Below are positions 2,888 to 17,024 of a stretch of DNA of 32,321 nucleotides, piece by piece. The notes below the pieces were generated by a model. The model was not told the origin of the DNA. It searched no databases and worked only from the letters and a program-made list of their open reading frames with translations. A program made the position numbers and the translations under genes. Within the stretch, counting starts at the first letter, position 1, and every line of letters begins with the position of its first letter. Source of the DNA: a virus; IMG/VR virus record IMGVR_UViG_3300042091_002609, positions 1 to 32,321 of that record. One strand, given 5' to 3'.

Positions 2888-3223
2888 ATGGAGCCGTGCA
2901 TCCAGTCCGCCAACGGCACCAGCCCCTGCCTGATTTGTGGAGGGCGGGCTGAGAAGATGCACCGGCCTATGTTCCATCGGGGAACCTTCTGCCCCCGATG
3001 TTGCGTGGTCTGCGCGCCGAAGACGGCACCATCCACCGGCATCGCCACGGCGTTGACTACGGCAGTAGCCACACAACTCCCGACCAGGATGTCTGCGCAA
3101 GGCGCTACTCAGTGGAAGGATGCCGGTTGGGGTCCGCGCCCGGCTGATCCGTTCTACCACGACCGCGATCGGCATGCGCCACACTCGCGATGGGTACCGC
3201 GCCGTTTGCGATGGTTCAGTTAG
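2888..3223 (+). CDS. Small cysteine-rich (zinc-ribbon-like) protein
   Basis: The ATG lies 3 bases after the terL stop. The 111-residue product has CLICGG (residues 15-20), then FHRGTFCPRCC ending near residue 39, and a further cysteine at VVCAP. These cysteine pairs look like a zinc ribbon. The middle is Ala/Thr-rich and the C-terminus is rich in Trp, Arg and His (WGPRPADPFYHDRDRH). I do not recognise a named family. Close spacing to terL suggests it is co-transcribed with the packaging genes. The last 34 bases overlap the longest reading frame of the following gene, but that upstream part of the next gene is probably not translated. Confidence 0.55.
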   Translation: MEPCIQSANGTSPCLICGGRAEKMHRPMFHRGTFCPRCCVVCAPKTAPSTGIATALTTAVATQLPTRMSAQGATQWKDAGWGPRPADPFYHDRDRHAPHSRWVPRRLRWFS

Positions 3224-5028
3224 AAAAACCCGGCGCCGGTCCCTCACGGGAGTACTGTCCCGGATCGCCGTTATGGCCCATGGCGAGTCAACCGTCGTCG
3301 TACATTGGTAAACGCTGCGCAAAAAAAGGGGAGGATCTAGAAAAAGCACCGTGTCGAGAGAACTCATGGCTGATTACTGGATGGAAGGGCTGTGATCGCC
3401 AGAGATGTCTACCAGGCCACCTAGAGGCGAATTCGCGGCCAGGATCGTCTCAGTTGGGCTTATTGGCGTTCTGCCGACAGCCGCGCGGACCTCGACGGGG
3501 GCTGGCACAGAAATCAAAGCGCCTTTCCGATAGACTGAAGCAAGGCTCACGGCCCAAGGAATTCCCAAAACTGCAACGCATTGCCATCGCGGGTGCTAGC
3601 GGATATATCGGCGGAAGACTAGTGCCGCAACTGCTCGCTTCCGGCTATGCGGTGCGATGCCTAGTGCGCTCTACTGCGAAGTTGGAAGGCCGCGCTTGGG
3701 CCTTAGACTCCCGCGTTGAGATCCGCAGGACCGATCTCGCCGACGCGCCATCGCTGACGCGTGAGTTGGAAACGTGTGGCGCGGCTTTTTATTTGGTGCA
3801 TTCGATGATGTCGGCCGGCGACGAGTATGCTCAACGCGACCGGCAACTCGCCCTAGCCTTCGGACGGGCAGCCCACGACGCACGAGTGGGGCGCGTAATT
3901 TACCTTGGCGGCCTGGGTGAAACCGGTTCGCATCTAAGCAAGCATCTGTCGTCGCGCCGTGACGTGGAGGGAGCGCTTGCCTCTGCGGGAGTGCCGGTCA
4001 CGGTGCTGCGCGCCGCGATGATCATCGGCTCCGGCTCGGCCTCTTTCGAGATTCTGCGGTACCTCGTCCACCGATTGCCAATCATGATCACACCGAAGTG
4101 GGTGAGCACTCCGTGCCAGCCAATCGCGGTCCAAAACGTGCTCACGTACCTGGTCGGCGTGCTAGCCGTCCCAGAAACCACCGGTGGTGTTTTCGACATC
4201 GGTGGGCCTGAAGCGCTGTGCTACAGCGACATCATTCGCATTATGGCGGAAGAGCTCGGTCTTTCCCGGCGCTGGCTCATACCGGTCCCGGTCCTGACGC
4301 CGCGCTTGAGTTCTTATTGGATTCATCTTGTGACTCCATTGAGCCACAAGATTGCAATACCGCTGGCCGAAGGACTAAAAAACCCAGTCGTGTGCCGTGA
4401 CGACCGGATCACTCATTTGGTCCCGCAGAAACTGTTGAACGTTCGCGAGGCTATCCGCGCCGCACTCAGCCAAGTTACGGCACATCAGGTGGAGACCAAC
4501 TGGTCGATGGCTGGCCCGATGCCCGGTGATCCGGATTGGTCTGGTGGCACAGTCTTTCGCGACACCCGCGAAGTTGCCATCGACGCGCCGGCCGGGGCAG
4601 TATTCCGCGCCGTATGTCGCTTAGGCGGGCAACGTGGCTGGCACGGCGCCAATTGGCTCTGGATCATCCGTGGCTGGCTGGATCGGCTGGCTGGAGGGCC
4701 TGGATTGCGCCGCGGCCGCCGTGATCCCGATGTCCTCAGCTACGGCGAGGCGCTCGACTTCTGGCGCGTCGTCGGCTTTGAGCCAGACCGTTGTGTCTCG
4801 TTACGTGCCGAAATGCGATTACCGGGTGAAGCGTTGCTCGACTTCCGAATAGAACCACGTAACAAAGGCCAATGCATCCTCCACCAGACAGCTTTGTTCC
4901 GCCCCCGCGGGCTGCTCGGTTTGATCTATTGGTACGCGGTGCTCCCGTTCCATCACGTTGTGTTCCGCGGGATGCTGGCTGGCATCCAGCGCGACGCCAT
5001 TCATGTCGCTCTGCTGCCTCAGACGTGA
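3190..5028 (+). CDS. NAD(P)-binding SDR-like protein with C-terminal DUF2867
   Basis: The recognisable protein starts near base 3571: KLQRIAIAGASGYIGG contains the GxxGxxG dinucleotide-binding loop (bases 3592-3612), followed by an atypical short-chain dehydrogenase/reductase domain of about 300 residues. The last 180 residues are a DUF2867 domain, with ANWLW, RGWLDRL, RRGRRDPD, LDFWRV and the aromatic/hydrophobic LIYWYAVLPFHH near the end. Such two-domain proteins are chromosomal proteins of unknown substrate. The first 127 residues of the open frame look unlike any SDR leader and are probably not natural; the nearest ATG to the domain is 3280 and TTG codons lie at 3454 and 3463, so the start is unresolved and the true N-terminus may be lost. 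It has no obvious virion role and looks like inserted cargo between terL and the joiner. Confidence 0.8.
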   Translation: MGTAPFAMVQLEKPGAGPSREYCPGSPLWPMASQPSSYIGKRCAKKGEDLEKAPCRENSWLITGWKGCDRQRCLPGHLEANSRPGSSQLGLLAFCRQPRGPRRGLAQKSKRLSDRLKQGSRPKEFPKLQRIAIAGASGYIGGRLVPQLLASGYAVRCLVRSTAKLEGRAWALDSRVEIRRTDLADAPSLTRELETCGAAFYLVHSMMSAGDEYAQRDRQLALAFGRAAHDARVGRVIYLGGLGETGSHLSKHLSSRRDVEGALASAGVPVTVLRAAMIIGSGSASFEILRYLVHRLPIMITPKWVSTPCQPIAVQNVLTYLVGVLAVPETTGGVFDIGGPEALCYSDIIRIMAEELGLSRRWLIPVPVLTPRLSSYWIHLVTPLSHKIAIPLAEGLKNPVVCRDDRITHLVPQKLLNVREAIRAALSQVTAHQVETNWSMAGPMPGDPDWSGGTVFRDTREVAIDAPAGAVFRAVCRLGGQRGWHGANWLWIIRGWLDRLAGGPGLRRGRRDPDVLSYGEALDFWRVVGFEPDRCVSLRAEMRLPGEALLDFRIEPRNKGQCILHQTALFRPRGLLGLIYWYAVLPFHHVVFRGMLAGIQRDAIHVALLPQT

Positions 5029-6134: not shown

Positions 6135-7724
6135 ATGAGCACCCCGACAATCACTCCAGTAATTCCGGACCACATCGAGATCTGGCCGACCGAGCGGCTG
6201 GTGCCGTACTCGAAGAACGCGCGCACGCATTCGCCCGAGCAGGTGGCCCAGATCGCGGCTTCTATCATCGAGTTCGGGTTTGTCAATCCGATCCTGGTGG
6301 ATACGAATTCCGGGATTATTGCCGGCCACGGTCGGCTTTTGGCAGCCCGCAAACTGGGCATGCTGAAGGTTCCCGTAGTCGTCCTCGACCACCTAAACGA
6401 GACCCAGCGGCGCGCGTACATCCTCGCGGACAACAAAATCGCGGAAAACGCCGGATGGGACGAGGAACTGCTGGCCGAGGAGATCCGCGCGCTTCAAACG
6501 GAAGGCTTCGACGCCGCACTCACCGGATTTTCCAGCGAGGAGTTGGACTCATTGCTGGTGGCACCCGAGGAACCGGAATCCGCACCCGAGACTGAAGAGC
6601 AGGTTCCGGAAGCTCCGGCCCAGGCAGTCACGCGGCCCGGCGACGTCTGGGTGATTGGCAAGCATCGCCTGGTGTGCGGCGACTGCCGCGACCTGGCGGT
6701 GGTGACCAAATTGCTCGATCCGGAGAAGAAGGACGCCCGTCAGGTCAACCTCTGCATCACCTCGCCGCCCTACGCCTCGCAGAGGGAATACGACTCCTCA
6801 AGCGGCTTCCGGCCGATCCCGCCCGACCAGTATGCAGATTGGTATCGGGATGTGGCCGCCAATATCGCCACGATACTTGCAGACGACGGCTCCTACTTCC
6901 TGAACATCAAGGAGCATGCCGACAATGGCGAGCGCAGCCTCTATGTGAAGGATTTGGTTATCGCCCACCGCCGGGTGTGGGGCTGGCGCTTTGTTGACGA
7001 GTTCTGCTGGCGCAAAACCGATAATGGCGTTCCTGGCGGTTGGAACAACCGCTTCAAAAACGCATGGGAACCTGTGTTCCATTTTTGCCGCCAGCAGGAA
7101 ATCAAATTCCGGCCGAAGCGTGTCGGGCACGAGTCGGAGGACTGTTTCGCGTATTCTCCCAACAACCCCAAATCCACATCGGGCAGCGGGCTGCTGGGCA
7201 CGGGGCCGCGTGGTGCTGCTGCCGATCCTGGCAGGAACCAGAGCGCCTGGCAGAGATCGCATCGGAACCTGAGCGCCTCGACCAATCCAGAAGGCCGCTA
7301 CACCGGCGTCGCGCGACCGTCGAATGTCATTGAAGTGAAGTCCGAGTCCAGCCAGGGATCGCACAGCGCGCCGTTTCCGCGGGCGCTGGTGGAGTTCTTC
7401 TTGTTTGCGTTCAGCGATCCCGGCGATGTGGTTTATGACCCGTTCATGGGTTCTGGGACGACGATGGCCGCTGCGCACCTGCTGGATCGCAGCGCGTATG
7501 GCTGCGAGTTGTCGCCGGCCTACTGCGATGTGATCCTGCGGCGAATGATCAATCTGGCCGGCGAGACGCCGGTGCTCGCAGAGACCGGCCAATCGTTCAG
7601 CGCCGTTGCGGAGGCGCGTGGCGTCCCGGTGGACGTGGCGTTGAATCCAAAGGAACAGGACTCGCGCGCCATCAAACATCATGGCCCGAACCCGTGCTAT
7701 GGCCCGAAACGGAGGGCCTCGTAA
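6135..7724 (+). CDS. ParB-like domain fused to DNA methyltransferase (TSPPY, probably N4-cytosine)
   Basis: Protein of 529 residues. Residues about 14-140 form a ParB/Srx-type N-terminal domain (RLVPYSKNARTHSPEQVAQI, then IIAGHGRLLAARKLG at 61-75 and ILADNKIAENAGW). The methyltransferase follows: motif IV TSPPY (209-213) comes before the SAM-binding DPFMGSGTT (435-443), the beta-class order. TSPPY is most often seen in N4-cytosine enzymes, although some N6-adenine enzymes share it. No restriction endonuclease lies nearby, so it is probably an orphan modification enzyme that protects phage DNA or competes with host marks; the role of the ParB part in such fusions is not settled. The final 20 residues are basic and overlap the next short ORF. 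Confidence 0.93.
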   Translation: MSTPTITPVIPDHIEIWPTERLVPYSKNARTHSPEQVAQIAASIIEFGFVNPILVDTNSGIIAGHGRLLAARKLGMLKVPVVVLDHLNETQRRAYILADNKIAENAGWDEELLAEEIRALQTEGFDAALTGFSSEELDSLLVAPEEPESAPETEEQVPEAPAQAVTRPGDVWVIGKHRLVCGDCRDLAVVTKLLDPEKKDARQVNLCITSPPYASQREYDSSSGFRPIPPDQYADWYRDVAANIATILADDGSYFLNIKEHADNGERSLYVKDLVIAHRRVWGWRFVDEFCWRKTDNGVPGGWNNRFKNAWEPVFHFCRQQEIKFRPKRVGHESEDCFAYSPNNPKSTSGSGLLGTGPRGAAADPGRNQSAWQRSHRNLSASTNPEGRYTGVARPSNVIEVKSESSQGSHSAPFPRALVEFFLFAFSDPGDVVYDPFMGSGTTMAAAHLLDRSAYGCELSPAYCDVILRRMINLAGETPVLAETGQSFSAVAEARGVPVDVALNPKEQDSRAIKHHGPNPCYGPKRRAS

Positions 7725-7894: not shown

Positions 7895-9160
7895 ATGCTG
7901 GACATTATTGATCGCCTGCGCAATCTCCAGATCCAAATCTGGCCGGTGGACCGCCTGCTTCCGTACGTCCGGAACGCGAGGACCCATACCGATGAGCAGG
8001 TAGCCCAGGTCGCCGCGAGCATGCGGCAGTTTGGCTGGACCAATCCGATCCTCGTCGGCAGCGACAACATCATCATTGCGGGCCACGCCCGCCTGGCGGC
8101 TGCGCGAAAGCTCGGTCTTGCCGAGGTTCCGGTCATCGTTCTCGATCATCTTAGCGAGGCGGATCGGCGCGCACTCGTGCTGGCCGACAACAAGATTGCC
8201 ACCAATGCCGGCTGGGATGACGAGATGCTTCGCGTCGAATTGGAGTCGCTGAAGGCCGCCGACTACGACCTGGAACTGGTGGGATTCAGCCGCGAGGAAC
8301 TCGACGCGATCCTTGTCGATCCCGAACAAACAAACGCGGGCCAGAGCGAGGACGATGCGGCACCGGAGGCCCAGGAGACTGCGGTCACGGTTGCCGGCGA
8401 TGTGTGGGTGATGGGCGACCACCGCCTGCTCTGCGGTGATGCAACCATGCTCGCGGACGTGGAGAAGGTCATGGCCGGCGGGCTGGCAGACATGACCTTT
8501 ACCGACCCTCCATATGGGGTAGCGTACGAAGGGAAGACGGCAAGGAAGCTCAAGATCCAGAACGACAAGCTGGGCGGGAAGTTCTATGATTTCCTGCGCG
8601 ACGCGTCGACTAACATGCTGGCGGTCTGCAAGGGCGCCATCTACATCTGCATGTCCTCGTCGGAGTTGCACACGCTCTACCAGGCGTTCGCCGATGCCGG
8701 CGGGCATTGGTCGACGTTCGTGATCTGGGCCAAGCATCACTTCACTCTGGGACGGTCCGATTACCAGCGTCAGTACGAGCCCATCTTATATGGCTGGCGC
8801 GAGGGCACGGATCATTTCTGGTGTGGTGCCCGCGACCAGGGGGATGTCTGGTTCATCAAGCGTCCGGCCAGCAACCAGGAGCACCCAACGATGAAGCCGG
8901 TCGAGTTGGTCGAGCGTGCGATCCGCAACAGCAGTAAGACGCGCGACACAATCCTCGATCCCTTTGCCGGCAGCGGCACGACCGCGATCGCCTGCGAGAA
9001 GGCCGGACGTCAGGCGCGACTGATTGAGTTGGACCCGAAGTACTGCGACGTGATTTGCAGAAGGTTTACGGACTTCGCTGGCAAGCCAGCCATACTTGAG
9101 TCCACCGGCGAAACCTTCGATGCTGTCGCCGCATCGAGAGCGGTCGAGGTAACGGCGTGA
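7895..9160 (+). CDS. ParB-like domain fused to DNA methyltransferase (DPPY, probably N6-adenine)
   Basis: Protein of 421 residues with the same architecture as the 6135 gene but clearly diverged. ParB-like part: RLLPYVRNARTHTDEQVAQV (residues 20-39), IIAGHARLAAARKLG (60-74), VLADNKIATNAGW. Methyltransferase part: DPPY (204-207) before DPFAGSGTT (355-363), beta-class order; DPPY is the usual N6-adenine signature. A target-recognition region rich in aromatic residues lies between them. ATG 7895 follows the ParB fragment stop by one base, and the stop overlaps the next GTG, so the genes are read as one unit. Having a TSPPY and a DPPY enzyme side by side suggests two different base modifications on the phage DNA. 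Confidence 0.94.
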   Translation: MLDIIDRLRNLQIQIWPVDRLLPYVRNARTHTDEQVAQVAASMRQFGWTNPILVGSDNIIIAGHARLAAARKLGLAEVPVIVLDHLSEADRRALVLADNKIATNAGWDDEMLRVELESLKAADYDLELVGFSREELDAILVDPEQTNAGQSEDDAAPEAQETAVTVAGDVWVMGDHRLLCGDATMLADVEKVMAGGLADMTFTDPPYGVAYEGKTARKLKIQNDKLGGKFYDFLRDASTNMLAVCKGAIYICMSSSELHTLYQAFADAGGHWSTFVIWAKHHFTLGRSDYQRQYEPILYGWREGTDHFWCGARDQGDVWFIKRPASNQEHPTMKPVELVERAIRNSSKTRDTILDPFAGSGTTAIACEKAGRQARLIELDPKYCDVICRRFTDFAGKPAILESTGETFDAVAASRAVEVTA

Positions 9161-10409: not shown

Positions 10410-10592
10410 CTACTGCTCGTTCACGAGGCGGCGCAGCCGAGCCGCCGATCGGATGCGAATCTCGCGTCCGGTTGCCAGATTGGTTCCGCGCCAGCCGCCG
10501 TAGGGCGACTCGCCGGTGATGCGAACCTTGGCCAGCACACCGCTAACCTTGGCGATGTACGTCGATCCGACCTGTATGTCGGCCTTTTTCAT
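10410..10592 (-). CDS. Small basic protein, first gene of a - strand pair
   Basis: Product of 60 residues from ATG 10592, preceded by GAGGTG four bases upstream as ribosome binding site. Sequence pattern: KKADIQVGSTYIAKVSGVLAK, VRITGESPYGGWRGTNLATG, then a basic end REIRIRSAARLRRLVNEQ. The strand-rich layout suggests a small beta-barrel (SH3- or KOW-like), as in short phage and DUF3489-associated proteins. A longer reading frame reaching 10727 exists, but the internal ATG has the clear ribosome binding site and the right length. It precedes the DUF3489 gene by 16 bases and is probably cotranscribed with it. Confidence 0.75.
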   Translation of the reverse strand: MKKADIQVGSTYIAKVSGVLAKVRITGESPYGGWRGTNLATGREIRIRSAARLRRLVNEQ

Positions 10593-10606
10593 GGCACCTC
10601 GATTCA

Positions 10607-10623
10607 TCACTCTGTTCGAGTGA
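10607..10623. promoter_or_regulatory. Palindromic operator candidate in divergent gap
   Basis: TCACTC-TGTTC-GAGTGA is a perfect 6-bp inverted repeat with a 5-base centre. It sits 15 bases before the - strand start at 10592 and 74 bases before the + strand gpW start. A dimeric regulator controlling the accessory pair is the simplest reading. Confidence 0.4.
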
Positions 10624-10696
10624 AAGCTCAAGGGGAATGTGCGCACTCCGCGCCAAAAACTAATCGAGAACCCGATGGAAAGGCGAACCGGGCGGC

Positions 10697-10951
10697 ATGG
10701 CGCTGACGCTTCAGCAGTTGCAGGCAAACCTCGACGCCGTTAATCAGGCCATTGGTAGCCCCACGTTGAAAGCGCGGTTTCCCGATGGCCGGGAAGTGAC
10801 GTACCGCTCCGTCGACGAACTGCGCAAAGCGAAGGCCGAGATCGAAGAGGACATCCGCGAACTCAGTGGCCAGACCGGCAGCCGCGTGCGGTTCGCGCAG
10901 CATAAACGTGGCGACGGCCCCACAGGGCCGACTCTTTACGACAGGTGGTGA
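10697..10951 (+). CDS. Head-tail joining protein, gpW-like
   Basis: Product of 84 residues, close to the usual 65-90 of the family. It begins MALTLQQLQANLDAVNQAIG, then TLKARFPDGREVTYRSVDE and a second helix LRKAKAEIEEDIRELSG. This helix - beta hairpin - helix layout is that of lambda gpW, the joiner that binds the portal and makes the connector ready for the tail. It leads the head module, as W does in lambda (W, B, C...). The stop is followed by the next start within six bases. Confidence 0.85.
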   Translation: MALTLQQLQANLDAVNQAIGSPTLKARFPDGREVTYRSVDELRKAKAEIEEDIRELSGQTGSRVRFAQHKRGDGPTGPTLYDRW

Positions 10952-10956
10952 GGGAC

Positions 10957-11247
10957 ATGGTGCACTGCGAGCATTGCGAGAGCCTGGCAGTTGAGGTTCG
11001 TGAGACGCGGGCGTCCTTGGAGAAGCTGATCGTGGAAATCACGACGTCGCACACCATTTTGGAGGGCATGCAGAAGACGCTCCTCGGCAACGGCCAGCCG
11101 GGGAAGTGCGCACTCCACGGCGAACGCCTCGCGCGCCTGGAGCGGTGGCGGTCCTGGCTTGCTGGTGCGCTTGCCGTCATCGGCCTGCTGTGGGGCGGCA
11201 CTGTCACGGTGCTCGCTGCGGTGTTGGCCGAAAGGATGAAGAAATGA
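10957..11247 (+). CDS. Small coiled-coil membrane protein
   Basis: I take ATG 10957, which has GGTGAGGG in front of it, over the GTG at 10945; the product is 96 residues. It has an N-terminal CEHC pair, a helical region (VRETRASLEKLIVEITTSH), a basic segment (ERLARLERWRSWL) and one membrane segment, AGALAVIGLLWGGTVTVLAA, near the C-terminus, ending in AERMKK. The coiled coil plus single C-terminal TM layout resembles XhlA-like or Rz-like accessory membrane proteins, but in this position between gpW and the portal a role in lysis is only a guess. It overlaps the next gene by ATGA. Confidence 0.65.
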   Translation: MVHCEHCESLAVEVRETRASLEKLIVEITTSHTILEGMQKTLLGNGQPGKCALHGERLARLERWRSWLAGALAVIGLLWGGTVTVLAAVLAERMKK

Positions 11248-11402
11248 GTGTGGCGGAGATCGCGGAGACGCTTGAGCCGGTGTCGCGGAAGAGCGCAGCT
11301 GCCGACAATCCGGAAGGATCGTTTAGTGACACGGCTCTTTACAAGATGGCGCGTGAGTTGCGTTTGGCCGCGGGCGACAGGCCCGATGTGGAGTCGATGT
11401 GA
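11244..11402 (+). CDS. Very small protein, unknown
   Basis: Product of 52 residues. The ATG overlaps the stop of the previous gene (ATGA) and its own stop overlaps the next start (GTGA), so it is embedded in a translationally coupled run. Sequence: an acidic helix SVAEIAETLEPVSRK, a loop, then DTALYKMARELRLAAGDRP. No family recognised. The coupling on both sides is the main reason to accept it. Confidence 0.5.
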   Translation: MSVAEIAETLEPVSRKSAAADNPEGSFSDTALYKMARELRLAAGDRPDVESM

Positions 11403-11665
11403 AGATCGTCCGTCGGTCAGTCCGGTTAATGCGCTCCGTGTGGATCGGTGAAGGTCCAAAAAGCCTTCTGGATCTGGCGAAGGAGCCTCGGCCGAAGTCG
11501 ACGCTCCCAACCTCGAAGCTCTACGTTATCGAGACCGACTTTGAAGTATCTCCCGATACCTACAACAACATGCAGGCAATGCTCGATGGGGTGCGGGAAA
11601 AATACGATCTCGACTTCGTGATATTGGAGCCCGGCTTCAAGCTGAAGCGATTCGATGACTACTGA
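11399..11665 (+). CDS. Small protein upstream of portal, unknown
   Basis: Product of 88 residues from a GTG start overlapping the previous stop. It has a basic N-terminus (KIVRRSVRLMRSVW), a linker, then a strand-helix-strand unit KLYVIETDFEVSPDTYNNMQ ... VREKYDLDFVILEPGFK. Its last 11 bases overlap the portal start. The alpha/beta pattern is compact and looks real but I cannot place it in a family. Position suggests an accessory head function. Confidence 0.6.
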   Translation: MKIVRRSVRLMRSVWIGEGPKSLLDLAKEPRPKSTLPTSKLYVIETDFEVSPDTYNNMQAMLDGVREKYDLDFVILEPGFKLKRFDDY

Positions 11666-13364
11666 CTTGATCAGGCGTCCCGTCCCCTTGCTTCGCCGGG
11701 ACTGGAGCGCTCGATCGGCTTCCTCCGGCCGCTATGCCGTGCAACGCGCTGTTGGCGAGATCGTCGATGGCTATCGCCGTCGTCATGCTGAGCGGTTTCG
11801 TTACGAAGGCGCCACCGCCGGCCGACGCGCTTACGGCTGGTACGCCGCATCAACTGACGCCAACGTCGAATTGATGGGCGCACTGATCTGGCTGCGAAAC
11901 CGTAGCCGGGATCTGATCCGCAATAACCCCTATGCGGCGCACGCCGTCGAAGAACTGGCTGGCAACGTAGTGGGAACCGGCATCGTGCCGAAAGCCAAGA
12001 CCGGCGCCACCGCGATTGACCAGATCATCGATAACGAGTGGCCCTACTTTGCCGAGGCCTGCGACGAGCCGCAGCGTCTCGACTTCTATGGCATGCAGAC
12101 ACTGACTGTGCGGACGATGGCCGAAAGCGGCGAGGCGCTCGCACGATTCAGACCGCGCATGGTCGATTCCGGTTTGCGCATTCCGCTACAGCTGCAGATG
12201 CTCGAAGCCGACTTCCTGGACCAGGCCCGTACGATGGGCCTGGTGAACGGCCATGTGATGGAGGGCGTCCAGTTCGATGAGGACGGCCACCGGGTGGCGT
12301 ACTGGCTGTTCAGCTATCACCCGGGTGGCGTGCTGATTCTCAATCCGCGCGGCGGCATCGTGAGCCAGCCAGTGCCGGCGGACCAGATCCTGCACACTTA
12401 TCGGGTGCTGCGTCCGGGCCAGGTGCGCGGCGTGCCGTGGCTCGCGCCGGTGATGATGGCCATCCGCGATCTGGATGACTACTGCGACGCAGAACGGGTT
12501 CGCAAGAAGGTTGAGGCCTGTGTCACGGCATTCGTGACGCAACCGGAAGGCGTCGAGGGGGATCCCGTGGGAATCGCCGGGACGGACCCATCGAGCGGCC
12601 TGGCTGTGGAGACCTTCCAGCCCGGCCAAGTCGAGTACCTGAAGCCCGGACAGGAAATCAAGTTCAATAACCCGCCTCCGGCAGGCGGCTACCGCGAGTA
12701 CAAGATGACCGAGTTGCAGGGGATCATGGCCGGCATCGGCCTGCCCTATGAACTCGGCACTGGCGACATGTCGCAGGTGAACTATTCGTCCTGGCGCGGC
12801 GGCATGTTGGGTTTCCGGAACACGGTTGAAAACTACCGTTGGCTCACACTGATGCCATTATTCTGCATGCCGGTGTGGCGCCGGTTCATCGACGTTCTCA
12901 TCCTGCAGGGCAAGATTTCGCGGGCGGCGGTAAACGATCCGAAGGTCCACCTACGGAGTGTGCAGTGGACGGCGCCGCGGTTTGAGTCCGTGGATCCGGT
13001 CAAAGATGCCGAGGCCGTGTTGAAGGACGTCCGCATGGGCCGGAAGACGTGGTTTGAGGCTGTGTTGGAGAACGGGTACGACCCGACTACGCAGCTTCAG
13101 CAGATTGCGCTCTTCAATAAGCTGGTGGACAAGTTCGAGATCATCCTCGACGTCGATCCGCGTAACGTGACGCTGCGCGGTCAGGAGCAACCCGCGAATA
13201 CCGAGGAGCGCACGCCTTCCAGCAAACCTGTTGGCGGCACCTCCGGCAGCCAGGGCCTTACGTTGTCCGAGGAAGACCTGGCGATGGTGAAAGAACTCCT
13301 GGTAGCTGGCATCACGCGCGAGACAGCGAGTTGGCAGTCCACGACCCGGCTCTACCGGGGTTAA
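11655..13364 (+). CDS. Portal protein (lambda gpB family)
   Basis: Twelve copies of this 569-residue protein would form the ring through which DNA enters and leaves the capsid. Lambda-family landmarks: RSRDLIRNNPYAAHAVEELAG near residue 85, NVVGTGIVPK (about 107-116), LQLQMLEADFLDQ (about 178-190), the ILHTYRVLRPGQVRGVPW stretch, MMAIRDLDDYCDAE, and YSSWRGGMLGFR, which is typical of this family. The C-terminal 60 residues are a flexible Pro/Ser/Gly tail with an acidic end. Length is near the 530-570 usual for gpB. It follows terL and gpW as in lambda, except that 8 kb of accessory DNA has separated it from terL. Confidence 0.95.
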   Translation: MTTDLIRRPVPLLRRDWSARSASSGRYAVQRAVGEIVDGYRRRHAERFRYEGATAGRRAYGWYAASTDANVELMGALIWLRNRSRDLIRNNPYAAHAVEELAGNVVGTGIVPKAKTGATAIDQIIDNEWPYFAEACDEPQRLDFYGMQTLTVRTMAESGEALARFRPRMVDSGLRIPLQLQMLEADFLDQARTMGLVNGHVMEGVQFDEDGHRVAYWLFSYHPGGVLILNPRGGIVSQPVPADQILHTYRVLRPGQVRGVPWLAPVMMAIRDLDDYCDAERVRKKVEACVTAFVTQPEGVEGDPVGIAGTDPSSGLAVETFQPGQVEYLKPGQEIKFNNPPPAGGYREYKMTELQGIMAGIGLPYELGTGDMSQVNYSSWRGGMLGFRNTVENYRWLTLMPLFCMPVWRRFIDVLILQGKISRAAVNDPKVHLRSVQWTAPRFESVDPVKDAEAVLKDVRMGRKTWFEAVLENGYDPTTQLQQIALFNKLVDKFEIILDVDPRNVTLRGQEQPANTEERTPSSKPVGGTSGSQGLTLSEEDLAMVKELLVAGITRETASWQSTTRLYRG

Positions 13365-13392
13365 TTCCATTCCGAGAAAAGAGGGAGAACTC

Positions 13393-13881
13393 ATGAAGGG
13401 AAATCCGGAGGTATTGGCCGGTCTTCAGGAAGCGATCACCATCGAGGCAACCCTGATGCTTCAGTACCTGCTCGACCAGAGGGACCTGAAACGCCTGGGA
13501 GTCGATCTGGCCGATGGCTTCAAACGGCTGCACGAACAGTGTGAGGACCATATGAAGTGCCTCACGAGCCGGCTGTTGTTCCTCGAGGGGGCGCCGACGC
13601 TCAATCCGAAGCCGGCGGCGACGCATGACAGCATCGGCGACATGCTGAACGGCGCGTTTGATGCCGAGCAGGCTGCTGTTGCCCGCTTCGCCGATCTCTG
13701 TAAGCAGTGCTACGAGGCCGGCGACATGTCGAACTTCCACCTCTACCAGCACCTTTCGAAGTGGCACCGCGAGGGCGACGACAAGTTTAAAGGCCATATC
13801 TGTTGGCTCCAGAAACAGCTCTTCCAGTTTAAGAAGCTGGGCGAGAACGACTACATCGCCGTCAACGCGGTGAAGGAATAG
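13393..13881 (+). CDS. Bacterioferritin-like protein with degenerate diiron site
   Basis: A 162-residue four-helix protein that aligns by eye with E. coli bacterioferritin from the first residue (MKGNPEVL against MKGDTKVI), through QY in helix A, FLEG (residues 63-66) and GHICWL (134-139). Ligand positions: E18, H53, E92 and H135 match the terminal ligands E18, H54, E94 and H130 of Bfr. The two bridging carboxylates, E51 and E127, fall on C50 and F132, and the haem ligand M52 falls on E51. It therefore probably cannot run normal ferroxidase chemistry. A good ribosome binding site (GAGGGAG) precedes it, and it lies alone between portal and capsid genes, where lambda has no gene. It may be a capsid-associated or packaged protein; this is inference. 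Confidence 0.85.
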   Translation: MKGNPEVLAGLQEAITIEATLMLQYLLDQRDLKRLGVDLADGFKRLHEQCEDHMKCLTSRLLFLEGAPTLNPKPAATHDSIGDMLNGAFDAEQAAVARFADLCKQCYEAGDMSNFHLYQHLSKWHREGDDKFKGHICWLQKQLFQFKKLGENDYIAVNAVKE

Positions 13882-13886
13882 GGACT

Positions 13887-16121
13887 ATGCCGCTTCTCAA
13901 GACCGAATACTTGCACCGGGACACGGGCGCGCCGCCGCCTGCCGCTCCGAACTCGGAAGTGTTCGCTGCCGATGCGCAAGTGTTGCCGTCCACCGCAAAT
14001 GCCAAGGACGGCACCATCGACGTTGTGTGGTACAGCGGGGCGTTCGTGCCTCGAATCGATCGATCCACCGGCGAGCCGTACATGTTGAAGCTCTCCATGG
14101 ACGGCTGCCGGTTCGACCGGCTGAACAACGGTGCGCCGGTCTTCGATACCCACTTCACCGGCGACGATTTCAAGTCGCTGGTGGCCGGCAAGGTTGGCAC
14201 GCGCGCCCAGGTGGGCGTGGTGCGGCGGGCTTGGCCGAACGGCGACAAAGGGATGGCCACGCTGCAGTTCGACATGGGTGATCCGGACGCAACCGAGATG
14301 TTCCGGAAGGCCAGCACCGGCATCCTCCAGAACCTCAGCTTCGGCACCTTTATTTATAAGCGCGAGAAAACCGACATGCAGACCGAGGGCATGCCGGAGG
14401 GCAAGCCGCCGTACCTGAACAATCAGGAAATCGGCATGTTCACGGCCACTGATTGGGAGCCGTTTGAAATCTCCCCGTGCACGGTGCCGGCCGATTTCAA
14501 TACGTGCTTTCTGAGCGCCCAACCCACCGGGGAAATCGCAGTTTTCAGTACGCCGGACTCCGGCGTGTTGGATGCACTTCGGGCAATTAGCCCGCGAAAG
14601 GAGAAACCTGCAATGCCTGAAACAGCGCAGGAAGCGGGCGCGGATGCCCGTGTAGTGAACGAACAGGCTTTGGCCGCCGCGCGGGAAGAGGCGGTCCAGG
14701 CCGAACGCAAGCGCGTCGCCGATATCGAGGCGCTCGGCACCATCCAGGGCGTCGACAAGACCCTCATTAGCGAATTTGTCACCAAGGGTGTCTCGGCCGA
14801 TGTGGCGGGCAAAGAGATCCTTAACAAGCTCGCGAAGAAGGGCACGGAGACGCCGATTACCAGCCTCGGCGCGCCGACGAGCGGCCGCGGCGGCGACGCC
14901 CTGGAGAAGCGGCTCAGTTGCATGCAGATGTCGCTGCTGCTGAGGGCCGATAGCCGGTTCTTCCTGAATCGACATCCGCTGAACGGCCAATTCCTGGGCG
15001 GATGCGGAGAGAAACAACAAGCACAGGCCGAGGAGATGGGGCGGGAATACCGCAACTTCAAACTCATCGAGATGGCCAAGGAGTTTCTGCAACTCAAGGG
15101 CGTCGATCCCAGGGGGATGGACGCGCGGCTCATCGCGGAACTGGCGCTCCGCGGCCCGTCACGCGGCGTCGAATTCTTTGACGGCGCCGAGTCGACCTCC
15201 GACTTCCCCGCTATCCTCGCCAACGTCGCCAACAAGACCTTGCGCCAGGGCTACGAAGCCTATCCCCGCACCTTCCAGCCGTTCTGCAGGCAGATGACGG
15301 CGGCCGACTTCAAGCCTATCAATCGGGTGATGCTCGCCGATGCGCCGTCCCTGCAAAAGCTGAATGAAAAGGGCGAGTACCATCGCGCTCTGCTCACCGA
15401 CAACAACATCAGTTACGCGCTCGCCACCTACGGCGAGATCGTGGCGTTGACTCGCAAGGTCATCATCAACGACGACCTGCAGGCGTTCACGCGCGTCCCC
15501 GCCTTGCTGGGCGTGGCTGCGGCGCGGCTGGAGTCGGACACCGTTTGGGCCATCATCACCTCCAATCCGGCTGCGATTTATGCCGGTGACAAGATCGCCA
15601 CGGCGCTTTTCGCCGCTGCTCACAATAACCTGCTCAGCGGTAGCGCCAGCAGTATCGATCCCACCGTCAATGGCGGCATTCCGGCTGGTACGGGACCGCT
15701 CGTGGCGTTGGGCGAAGGTCGCAAATCGATGCGGCAGCAAAAAGGACCGCAGGGCACCCCGCTCAACCTGGTTCCGCGCTTCATCGCTGTGCCGACCGCA
15801 CTGGAAACTTACGCGCTCCAGCTCGTGTATCCCATCAACATCGCTTCCGCTACCTCGACGGCAGTAGTTCCGGAATGGGTGCGCAGCCTGGTGCCCATCG
15901 TCGAACCCCGCCTGGATGCGGCGAGCGCGACTGGTTGGTATCTGATCGCCGACCCCGCGCAGATCGACACGGTGGAGTACTGCTACCTCGAGGGGCAGCA
16001 GGGCGTGTACGTGGAAACCAAGCAGGGCTTCGAGATCGACGGTGTCGAGATCAAGGCGCGGATGGACTTCGGCGCGGCCGGAATCGACTATCGCGGAATG
16101 CAGCGAAACGCCGGCGAGTAG
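13887..16121 (+). CDS. Prohead protease / scaffold / major capsid fusion
   Basis: One 744-residue frame carries three parts. Residues 1-210: a prohead serine protease with H89 (VFDTHF), S151 (NLSFGTF) and an acidic partner in WEPFEIS (190-196). Residues about 240-345: a charged Ala/Glu-rich helical segment that fits a scaffold or delta domain. Residues about 400-744: an HK97-fold major capsid protein, ending in the typical YCYLEGQQGVYVETKQGFE region and IKARMDFGA. Such protease-capsid fusions are known in tailed phages. An internal start with a strong ribosome binding site at residue 243 (see separate entry) could make the scaffold-capsid part alone, which would solve the problem of equal protease and capsid amounts. 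It follows the ferritin-like gene by 5 bases. Confidence 0.93.
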   Translation: MPLLKTEYLHRDTGAPPPAAPNSEVFAADAQVLPSTANAKDGTIDVVWYSGAFVPRIDRSTGEPYMLKLSMDGCRFDRLNNGAPVFDTHFTGDDFKSLVAGKVGTRAQVGVVRRAWPNGDKGMATLQFDMGDPDATEMFRKASTGILQNLSFGTFIYKREKTDMQTEGMPEGKPPYLNNQEIGMFTATDWEPFEISPCTVPADFNTCFLSAQPTGEIAVFSTPDSGVLDALRAISPRKEKPAMPETAQEAGADARVVNEQALAAAREEAVQAERKRVADIEALGTIQGVDKTLISEFVTKGVSADVAGKEILNKLAKKGTETPITSLGAPTSGRGGDALEKRLSCMQMSLLLRADSRFFLNRHPLNGQFLGGCGEKQQAQAEEMGREYRNFKLIEMAKEFLQLKGVDPRGMDARLIAELALRGPSRGVEFFDGAESTSDFPAILANVANKTLRQGYEAYPRTFQPFCRQMTAADFKPINRVMLADAPSLQKLNEKGEYHRALLTDNNISYALATYGEIVALTRKVIINDDLQAFTRVPALLGVAAARLESDTVWAIITSNPAAIYAGDKIATALFAAAHNNLLSGSASSIDPTVNGGIPAGTGPLVALGEGRKSMRQQKGPQGTPLNLVPRFIAVPTALETYALQLVYPINIASATSTAVVPEWVRSLVPIVEPRLDAASATGWYLIADPAQIDTVEYCYLEGQQGVYVETKQGFEIDGVEIKARMDFGAAGIDYRGMQRNAGE
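14597..14615 (+). promoter_or_regulatory. Internal ribosome binding site and ATG in the capsid fusion
   Basis: AAAGGAGA at 14597-14604 lies 8 bases before an in-frame ATG at 14613 (residue 243 of the fusion). This is among the best Shine-Dalgarno matches in the window and falls at the border of protease and scaffold regions. A product starting here would have 502 residues: scaffold plus capsid. The layout recalls lambda, where the nested Nu3 scaffold gene starts inside C. Confidence 0.65.
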
Positions 16122-16154
16122 GGCGCCGCTGGTACAGGGCAGACCAAACGGGCG

Positions 16155-16172
16155 GGGCGGCGCACGCCGCCC
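16155..16172 (+). promoter_or_regulatory. Hairpin between capsid and cement protein genes
   Basis: GGGCGGC (16155-16161) and GCCGCCC (16166-16172) form a perfect 7-bp stem with a GCAC loop in the 78-base gap. No T run follows. It may protect the capsid mRNA 3' end or partly stop transcription. The next gene has its own AAGGGAG ribosome binding site after it. Confidence 0.5.
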
Positions 16173-16199
16173 TCCCTATCAACTCAAGGGAGATTCCAA

Positions 16200-16994
16200 A
16201 TGCAGAATTACGTTCAGAAAGGTAACACCCTTACCGTGACCGCGCCGTATGCTCTGCTTAGCGGCGGCGGCTGCCAGGTGGGCAACGTCTTCGGCGTCTC
16301 GGTCAACAACCAGAACCCCGGCGATTCCAGTGAACTGGTGGTCGAGGGCGTCTTCGACCTGGCGAAAGATGGCAGTACGTTTGTCTCGGGCGCCAAGGTC
16401 TACTGGGACAATAACCAGCAGTTGACCACAGCTAACACGCTAACGGCGACGGGTGGGTCCACCAAGGAAATCGGGTTCGCGGTGCTGGACCAGGCCAGCG
16501 GAACTGCTGCGCCTGGCGGGGCGACTACCGACTTTACCGTGCGCGTGCGTCTGGTCCCGACCGGATTCACCCCGGTGGGCTCGGCGGATCTCGATCCTTC
16601 CGTGCTTCAGAAGACGGTCGTCGCTCTCACGGCGGCCCAGATCATGGGCATGAATGCCGCGCCGGTGAACATCCTGCCAGCGCCGGCTTCCGGCCAAGCG
16701 CTCGTTATTGACCAGATTGCGGTCGAGGTCAAACCGGGCACCGTCCAGTTCGCGGGCGGCGGCGCGGTCAGCCTTCCGTATCAGAGTGGTGGAGTTACGC
16801 CGCACTCCTCCAATATTCCCGCCGCGACCGTCACTGCGGCGGCGCAGAGTCTCAACGTTCTGCCAGTTCCGGCCGCTGTCGTACAGCCGCCGGTCGCCAC
16901 CGGTTTGAACATCACCAACGGCACCGCGCCGTTCACCGCCGGCAACGGCATCATGGTCGTGACGGTGTTCTACTCCGTCGTGACGCTCCAGTAG
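16200..16994 (+). CDS. DUF2190 capsid cement/decoration protein with extra C-terminal domain
   Basis: Product of 264 residues. The first ~120 (MQNYVQKGNTLTVTAPYALL, GCQVGNVFGVSVNN, VVEGVFDLAKDG, AKVYWDNNQQ, IGFAVLDQASG, DFTVRVRLVPTG) are a DUF2190 domain, known as a cement or decoration protein on capsids. The remaining ~140 form a second beta-rich unit, from VVALTAAQIMGMNAAPVNIL to GIMVVTVFYSVV, similar to an independent phage structural domain found as a separate protein elsewhere; here it is fused. ATG 16200 has AAGGGAG in front. Its place directly after the capsid gene matches lambda gpD function by position. Confidence 0.85.
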   Translation: MQNYVQKGNTLTVTAPYALLSGGGCQVGNVFGVSVNNQNPGDSSELVVEGVFDLAKDGSTFVSGAKVYWDNNQQLTTANTLTATGGSTKEIGFAVLDQASGTAAPGGATTDFTVRVRLVPTGFTPVGSADLDPSVLQKTVVALTAAQIMGMNAAPVNILPAPASGQALVIDQIAVEVKPGTVQFAGGGAVSLPYQSGGVTPHSSNIPAATVTAAAQSLNVLPVPAAVVQPPVATGLNITNGTAPFTAGNGIMVVTVFYSVVTLQ

Positions 16995-17024
16995 TCTTCG
17001 TCGTTTGCTCCTTGTATCCGTCTT

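Follow-up and report, generated by a model that had tools for sequence, protein, structure and literature searches.

A bacterioferritin-derived protein with a predicted loss of its di-iron site, encoded by an accessory gene in phage head operons

The 32,321-nt window analysed here (positions 1 to 32,321 of IMG/VR virus record IMGVR_UViG_3300042091_002609) encodes, between its portal and capsid genes, a protein, FTN, that is strongly supported as a phage descendant of bacterioferritin (Bfr) in which the subunit fold is kept. Sequence comparison strongly supports that FTN no longer has the ligands of the di-iron ferroxidase centre or of haem and that most acids of the iron path have gone. It is equally well supported that the gene, which lies inside the head operon, is accessory and that phages have deleted and exchanged it repeatedly. 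Taking the sequences together with a predicted structure, we consider it very probable that FTN is a repurposed protein descended from Bfr, made late as a dispensable accessory, and almost certainly not a ferroxidase; the whole explanation, in which this late accessory, non-ferroxidase Bfr descendant acts at the head or virion, is tentative and falls a little short of probable. The gene and its neighbours are as follows.

11655..13364, plus strand: portal protein, lambda family, upstream neighbour of FTN (PF05136, 3e-102)
13383..13387, plus strand: Shine-Dalgarno sequence GGGAG, 5 nt ahead of the FTN ATG
13393..13881, plus strand: FTN gene, stop included, an intact ORF for a 162-aa bacterioferritin-fold protein
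13887..16121, plus strand: protease-capsid fusion protein, downstream neighbour of FTN (PF25209, 5e-51; phrog_4523, 1.6e-164)

The position between portal and capsid and the gene's own ribosome binding site, both claimed in the original prediction, are thus borne out by the flanking PF05136 and PF25209 proteins and by GGGAG 5 nt before the ATG. Only 28 bp separate the portal stop from FTN and 5 bp separate FTN from the start of the capsid-protease gene, whose PHROG match is annotated as 'major head and protease protein'; the terminase of the window is of the GpA type by Pfam. A scan confined to sigma-70-type sites found no sigma-70-like promoter in 10500-17000, and PADLOC returned nothing convincing. 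Elsewhere in the window, two adjacent ParB_N plus N6_N4 methylase fusions (6135-7724 and 7895-9160) lie between the terminase and portal genes, and a protein with NmrA/NAD-binding and DUF2867 domains, of uncertain start codon, is encoded inside the late region (3190-5028). The terminase (938-2884) is about 45% identical to those of L013, L034 and other loci with portal and capsid at about 75-85%, which suggests that the terminase was exchanged separately.

An initial scan of IMG/VR gave 79 loci, and alignment- and homologue-based scans brought the FTN relatives in that database to about 100, down to about 40% identity. The portal-FTN-capsid order recurs in every close homologue whose flanks extend to portal or capsid, which answers the search in other phages proposed at the outset. 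The window protein had no match among the PHROG profiles at E<=0.1, and 41 family members gave weak, scattered matches only (best E 0.006). We found no genuine GenBank phage record carrying FTN, the matches that were opened sitting in bacterial-looking contigs: two 'phage' matches were rejected because their neighbourhoods look bacterial (H1, with smc, zipA and ligA, and H3), and H2 was set aside as the same organism with the same score as H1. The GenBank records MT835709.1 and CAKLQH020000007.1 are labelled phage but have bfr neighbourhoods that look bacterial. In a quick tree with long branches, the phage proteins form a single clade on a long stem, separate from cellular Bfr, and the open-access literature yielded no paper on the family. 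These observations support a new phage family that is conserved, not an isolated gene of the host, and the homologues do not appear to be active host Bfr.

That FTN is a bacterioferritin homologue nearly end to end, as first proposed, is upheld by alignment to Bfr over residues 1-160 in a comparison with PDB sequences and, separately, by hhalign (99.4%). The window protein matches Pfam Ferritin (PF00210) at 1.7e-10 and 41.4 bits, above the gathering cut-off of 24.5, as does the FTN of locus L190 (46.5 bits); the divergent L106 protein, at 24.0 bits, lies slightly under it. At 35.4 bits, the window protein does not reach the 125.55-bit cut-off of the Bfr equivalog TIGR00754. An AlphaFold model computed from 41 phage FTN sequences, with Bfr left out of the input, is confident (pLDDT 94.9, pTM 0.90), and its top PDB match in Foldseek is the Bfr 8sqr (TMq 0.91, rmsd 1.2), so the predicted-structure comparison first suggested as a check returns a Bfr fold. 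DSSP assigns helices at 5-35, 39-63, 81-108, 112-126, 135-149 and 151-158, i.e., the five-helix Bfr subunit, helix E included, with helix D interrupted. The interrupting loop is Gly-rich and longer in divergent homologues. In contrast, helix D is continuous at 114-144 in a control AlphaFold model of the host Bfr L192, the same span as in the solved structure of Mtb BfrA (PMC2777505). FTN numbering is consequently offset from that of Bfr by -2 through helix C and as far as the break in helix D, and by +5 beyond it. The features at the ferroxidase site are the following.

13540..13542, plus strand: Cys50 codon, replacing bridging Glu51 of Bfr (Cys in 38 and Ser in 3 of 41 homologues)
13765..13767, plus strand: His125 codon, structural equivalent of bridging Glu127 of Bfr by helix boundaries (His in 41/41)
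13771..13794, plus strand: codons 127-134, loop breaking helix D at the ferroxidase site (DSSP on the model)
13795..13797, plus strand: His135 codon, equivalent of Bfr His130 (His in 41/41)

Both bridging carboxylates are thus predicted to be lost, in line with the original prediction: the two positions are C50 and H125, and an acid is found at them in none of the 41 homologues over which residues were counted. The replacement of E51 by C50 holds as proposed; the pairing of E127 with F132 does not, F132 being a variable loop residue (F in 32, N in 7, R in 2). Sequence-only alignments (MAFFT, hhalign) paired E127 with the loop residues KFK, an assignment we dropped in favour of the helix boundaries of the AlphaFold model compared with the unbroken host helix D, from which E127 corresponds to H125 and H130 to H135; the H125 assignment is therefore set by predicted helix boundaries rather than superposed coordinates. 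E18, H53, E92 and H135 are all retained in the window protein, as claimed. At the haem-ligand position M52, no homologue has Met; the acid described there is present in the window protein (Glu51) and varies in the family (E in 29, Q in 5, K in 2, others). E92, H125 and H135 are invariant and C50 nearly so, with Ser in 3/41, while H53 is Tyr or Asp in 9/41 and E18 is lost in 3/41.

The replacements extend beyond the catalytic site. Across the 41 members, the inner-surface D50 is Q49, and, with channel residues taken from PMC4319037, the B-type channel has R34 for N34, A/C/G for D132, Q140 for E135 and an aromatic for D139, and the 3-fold channel has F115 for R117 and H116 (one Tyr) for D118. 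The E66 position remains acidic. Over 18 iron-handling positions of our own choosing, FTN proteins carry 2-4 acids, whereas E. coli Bfr has 12 and the three host Bfrs compared have 9-10. Many replacements are mostly invariant (R34, Q49, C50, F115, H116, H120, H125, Q140), and the median dN/dS over 530 FTN pairs is 0.14, indicating purifying selection; together, these point to a new constrained function and not to decay.

This constraint goes with frequent absence of the gene. In a portal-only search, FTN was missing from 13 of 79 scorable loci, about one in six sister phages, including phages whose portals are 83-88% identical. On a tree of 81 portals, FTN changes state 6 times, with at least 5 of the changes forced by well-supported branches. 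The portal tree leaves loss and gain undistinguished, and we examined the junctions for some of the changes. Comparison of L108 with L073 reveals a precise FTN deletion bounded by two nearly identical RBS-ATG stretches; the end of the portal gene upstream is the same in both. In FTN-less L098, L100, L101 and L128, FTN-like N-terminal codons open the capsid ORF. These junction scars favour loss in those lineages. In a wider set of FTN-less loci (L098, L100, L101, L102, L128 and L129), the capsid ORF begins MKGNPDVI... or MNPQV.AG..., which look like scars of in-frame deletions; for L098-L102 and L128/L129 we also weighed a conserved N-terminal signal common to FTN and capsid and rejected it, a deletion scar being simpler.

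Where present, FTN is, as the sequence identities indicate, exchanged independently of portal and capsid. L105 and L106 are 92% identical in portal and 83% in capsid and share 51% in FTN; L105 and L175 share 73%, 53% and 84%, respectively. A protein tailored to a single capsid would hardly be expected to pass between phages with capsids only 53% identical.

The slot itself recurs in another kind of module. In L190, a PF04860 portal lies upstream of FTN (4-bp ORF overlap), a ClpP-like protease and then a PF05065 capsid lie downstream, and the terminase is PF03354; by these assignments L190 is an HK97-type head module, unrelated to that of the window, with FTN in the same portal-protease slot, which supports a link to the head. 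An identical FTN protein is encoded on another contig, L178. Extra reverse-strand ORFs separate portal and FTN at L078:5370-5971 and L047:4746-5465, and the slot may accordingly be a mere insertion hot spot. Neither of the two proteins tested from these ORFs had a Pfam match; by eye, one portal-FTN reverse-strand ORF resembles a PIN-type toxin with a small partner.

The phages that carry FTN come from soil, and the evidence points to a link with Acidobacteria. A 59-kb contig of an Acidobacteriota MAG (G002:C98) carries a broken FTN with pieces of neighbouring head genes among ORFs whose N-terminal sequences, inspected by eye, suggest chromosomal genes; these remnants indicate an Acidobacteriota host, with MAG binning as a caveat. 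The MAGs G001 and G002 also encode a canonical Bfr (six ligands plus Met52) alongside the phage FTN gene, and FTN is only about 28-29% identical to host Bfr. A search of 396 Acidobacteriota genomes gave just the G001 FTN copy and a canonical Bfr.

FTN resembles Bfr (TIGR00754; E. coli, Brucella, Acidobacteriota) in fold, length, MKG N-terminus and helices A-E, and most members have equivalents of E18, H54, E94 and H130; unlike Bfr, it has no bridging carboxylates, no haem Met, a broken helix D and residues of the B-type and 3-fold channels that are for the most part not acidic. The phage ferritin-superfamily genes in the literature consulted are of the Dps (Lactobacillus phages, PMC6669764) or Mn-catalase (Gratiaviridae, PMC8008677) types, which are taken as stress protectors and belong to different families; unlike FTN, the Dps genes of Bas86, 3H10_20 and Comrade are found in replication regions or elsewhere outside the head genes. 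Encapsulins with ferritin-like or Bfr cargo (PMC8346489) likewise have a Bfr-fold gene beside an HK97-fold shell gene. However, these cargo Bfrs bear targeting peptides (PMC8346489), whereas the neighbour of FTN is a phage capsid and no encapsulin targeting peptide was recognised at the FTN C-terminus in alignments read by eye. Three BFVD models from uncultured Caudovirales (A0A6J7XDU5, A0A6J7WIS1 and A0A6J7WPK9), Dps-like and deposited under the name 'Prohead protease', match FTN weakly (E 0.06-0.1, 10-11% identity); by name, they link a ferritin-like fold to the head protease.

As a plausible role, FTN would be made late, together with portal and protease, and may form a Bfr-like oligomer; its putative C50/H53/E92/H125/H135 cluster may bind a non-haem metal without redox cycling iron, and the protein, dispensable but of benefit to fitness, would join the head at the stage when portal and protease assemble. 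That it acts at the head or virion is a tentative preference, slightly favoured over action on host Bfr. A description covering both sites, a Bfr fold without iron chemistry, rebuilt on Cys/His/Glu, which serves as a head or virion oligomer or as a subunit poisoning host Bfr cages, is put forward with similar caution.

Action on host Bfr, in which FTN would co-assemble into mixed shells as a decoy, lowering iron uptake or altering release during infection, strikes us as rather unlikely. The predicted end-to-end Bfr fold with helix E would suit it, as do the canonical Bfr in G001 and G002; exchange and loss of the gene also fit an intracellular target. Different Bfr subunit kinds can mix in one cage in vivo, and the hetero-Bfrs of Shewanella (SoBfr1/2) and Magnetospirillum (Bfr1/2) are built from Bfr-fold subunits with specialised roles, of which one kind carries no haem (PMC12120770). 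These systems are cellular, however, with one subunit supplying the ferroxidase and the other the haem (PMC12120770), and FTN appears to lack both. The low identity to host Bfr and the loop inserted in helix D speak against co-assembly, and expression from the head operon would come late for an effect on iron supply.

An unlikely reading is a free-standing metal-binding protein in the infected cell or lysogen (e.g., for Zn, Cu or Fe(II)) with a rebuilt Cys/His/Glu site: the invariant E92, H125 and H135, the near-invariant C50 and the exchange independent of head genes agree with it, but the variation at C50, H53 and E18 means that the full set is not fixed. We regard an essential structural part of capsid, neck or scaffold as highly improbable. 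The constant slot beside portal and protease, HK97-type module included, would favour such a part, but FTN is missing from near relatives in which portal and capsid are intact, and one deletion is recent and clean. Of the reuse of a ferritin fold in the head operon originally envisaged, the Bfr fold, the lost di-iron site and the conserved family therefore stand, whereas an essential capsid-lining or neck role is weakened by the FTN-less sister phages and by exchange independent of portal and capsid. An ordinary active Bfr acquired from the host is hardly credible, despite the Pfam Ferritin match and the common MKG N-terminus, because the whole family lacks the haem Met, both bridging carboxylates and most acids of the B channel, the 35 bits of the window protein fall short of the 125-bit Bfr threshold, and the clade stands apart on a long stem.

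A conserved phage family such as this, with the iron machinery of Bfr systematically replaced and the gene moving as a cassette next to portal and protease, would illustrate plainly how the fold of a storage cage can be given a different use. The family offers a small, testable system for phage reuse of host protein folds, in which natural presence/absence pairs such as L108 and L073 allow comparison.
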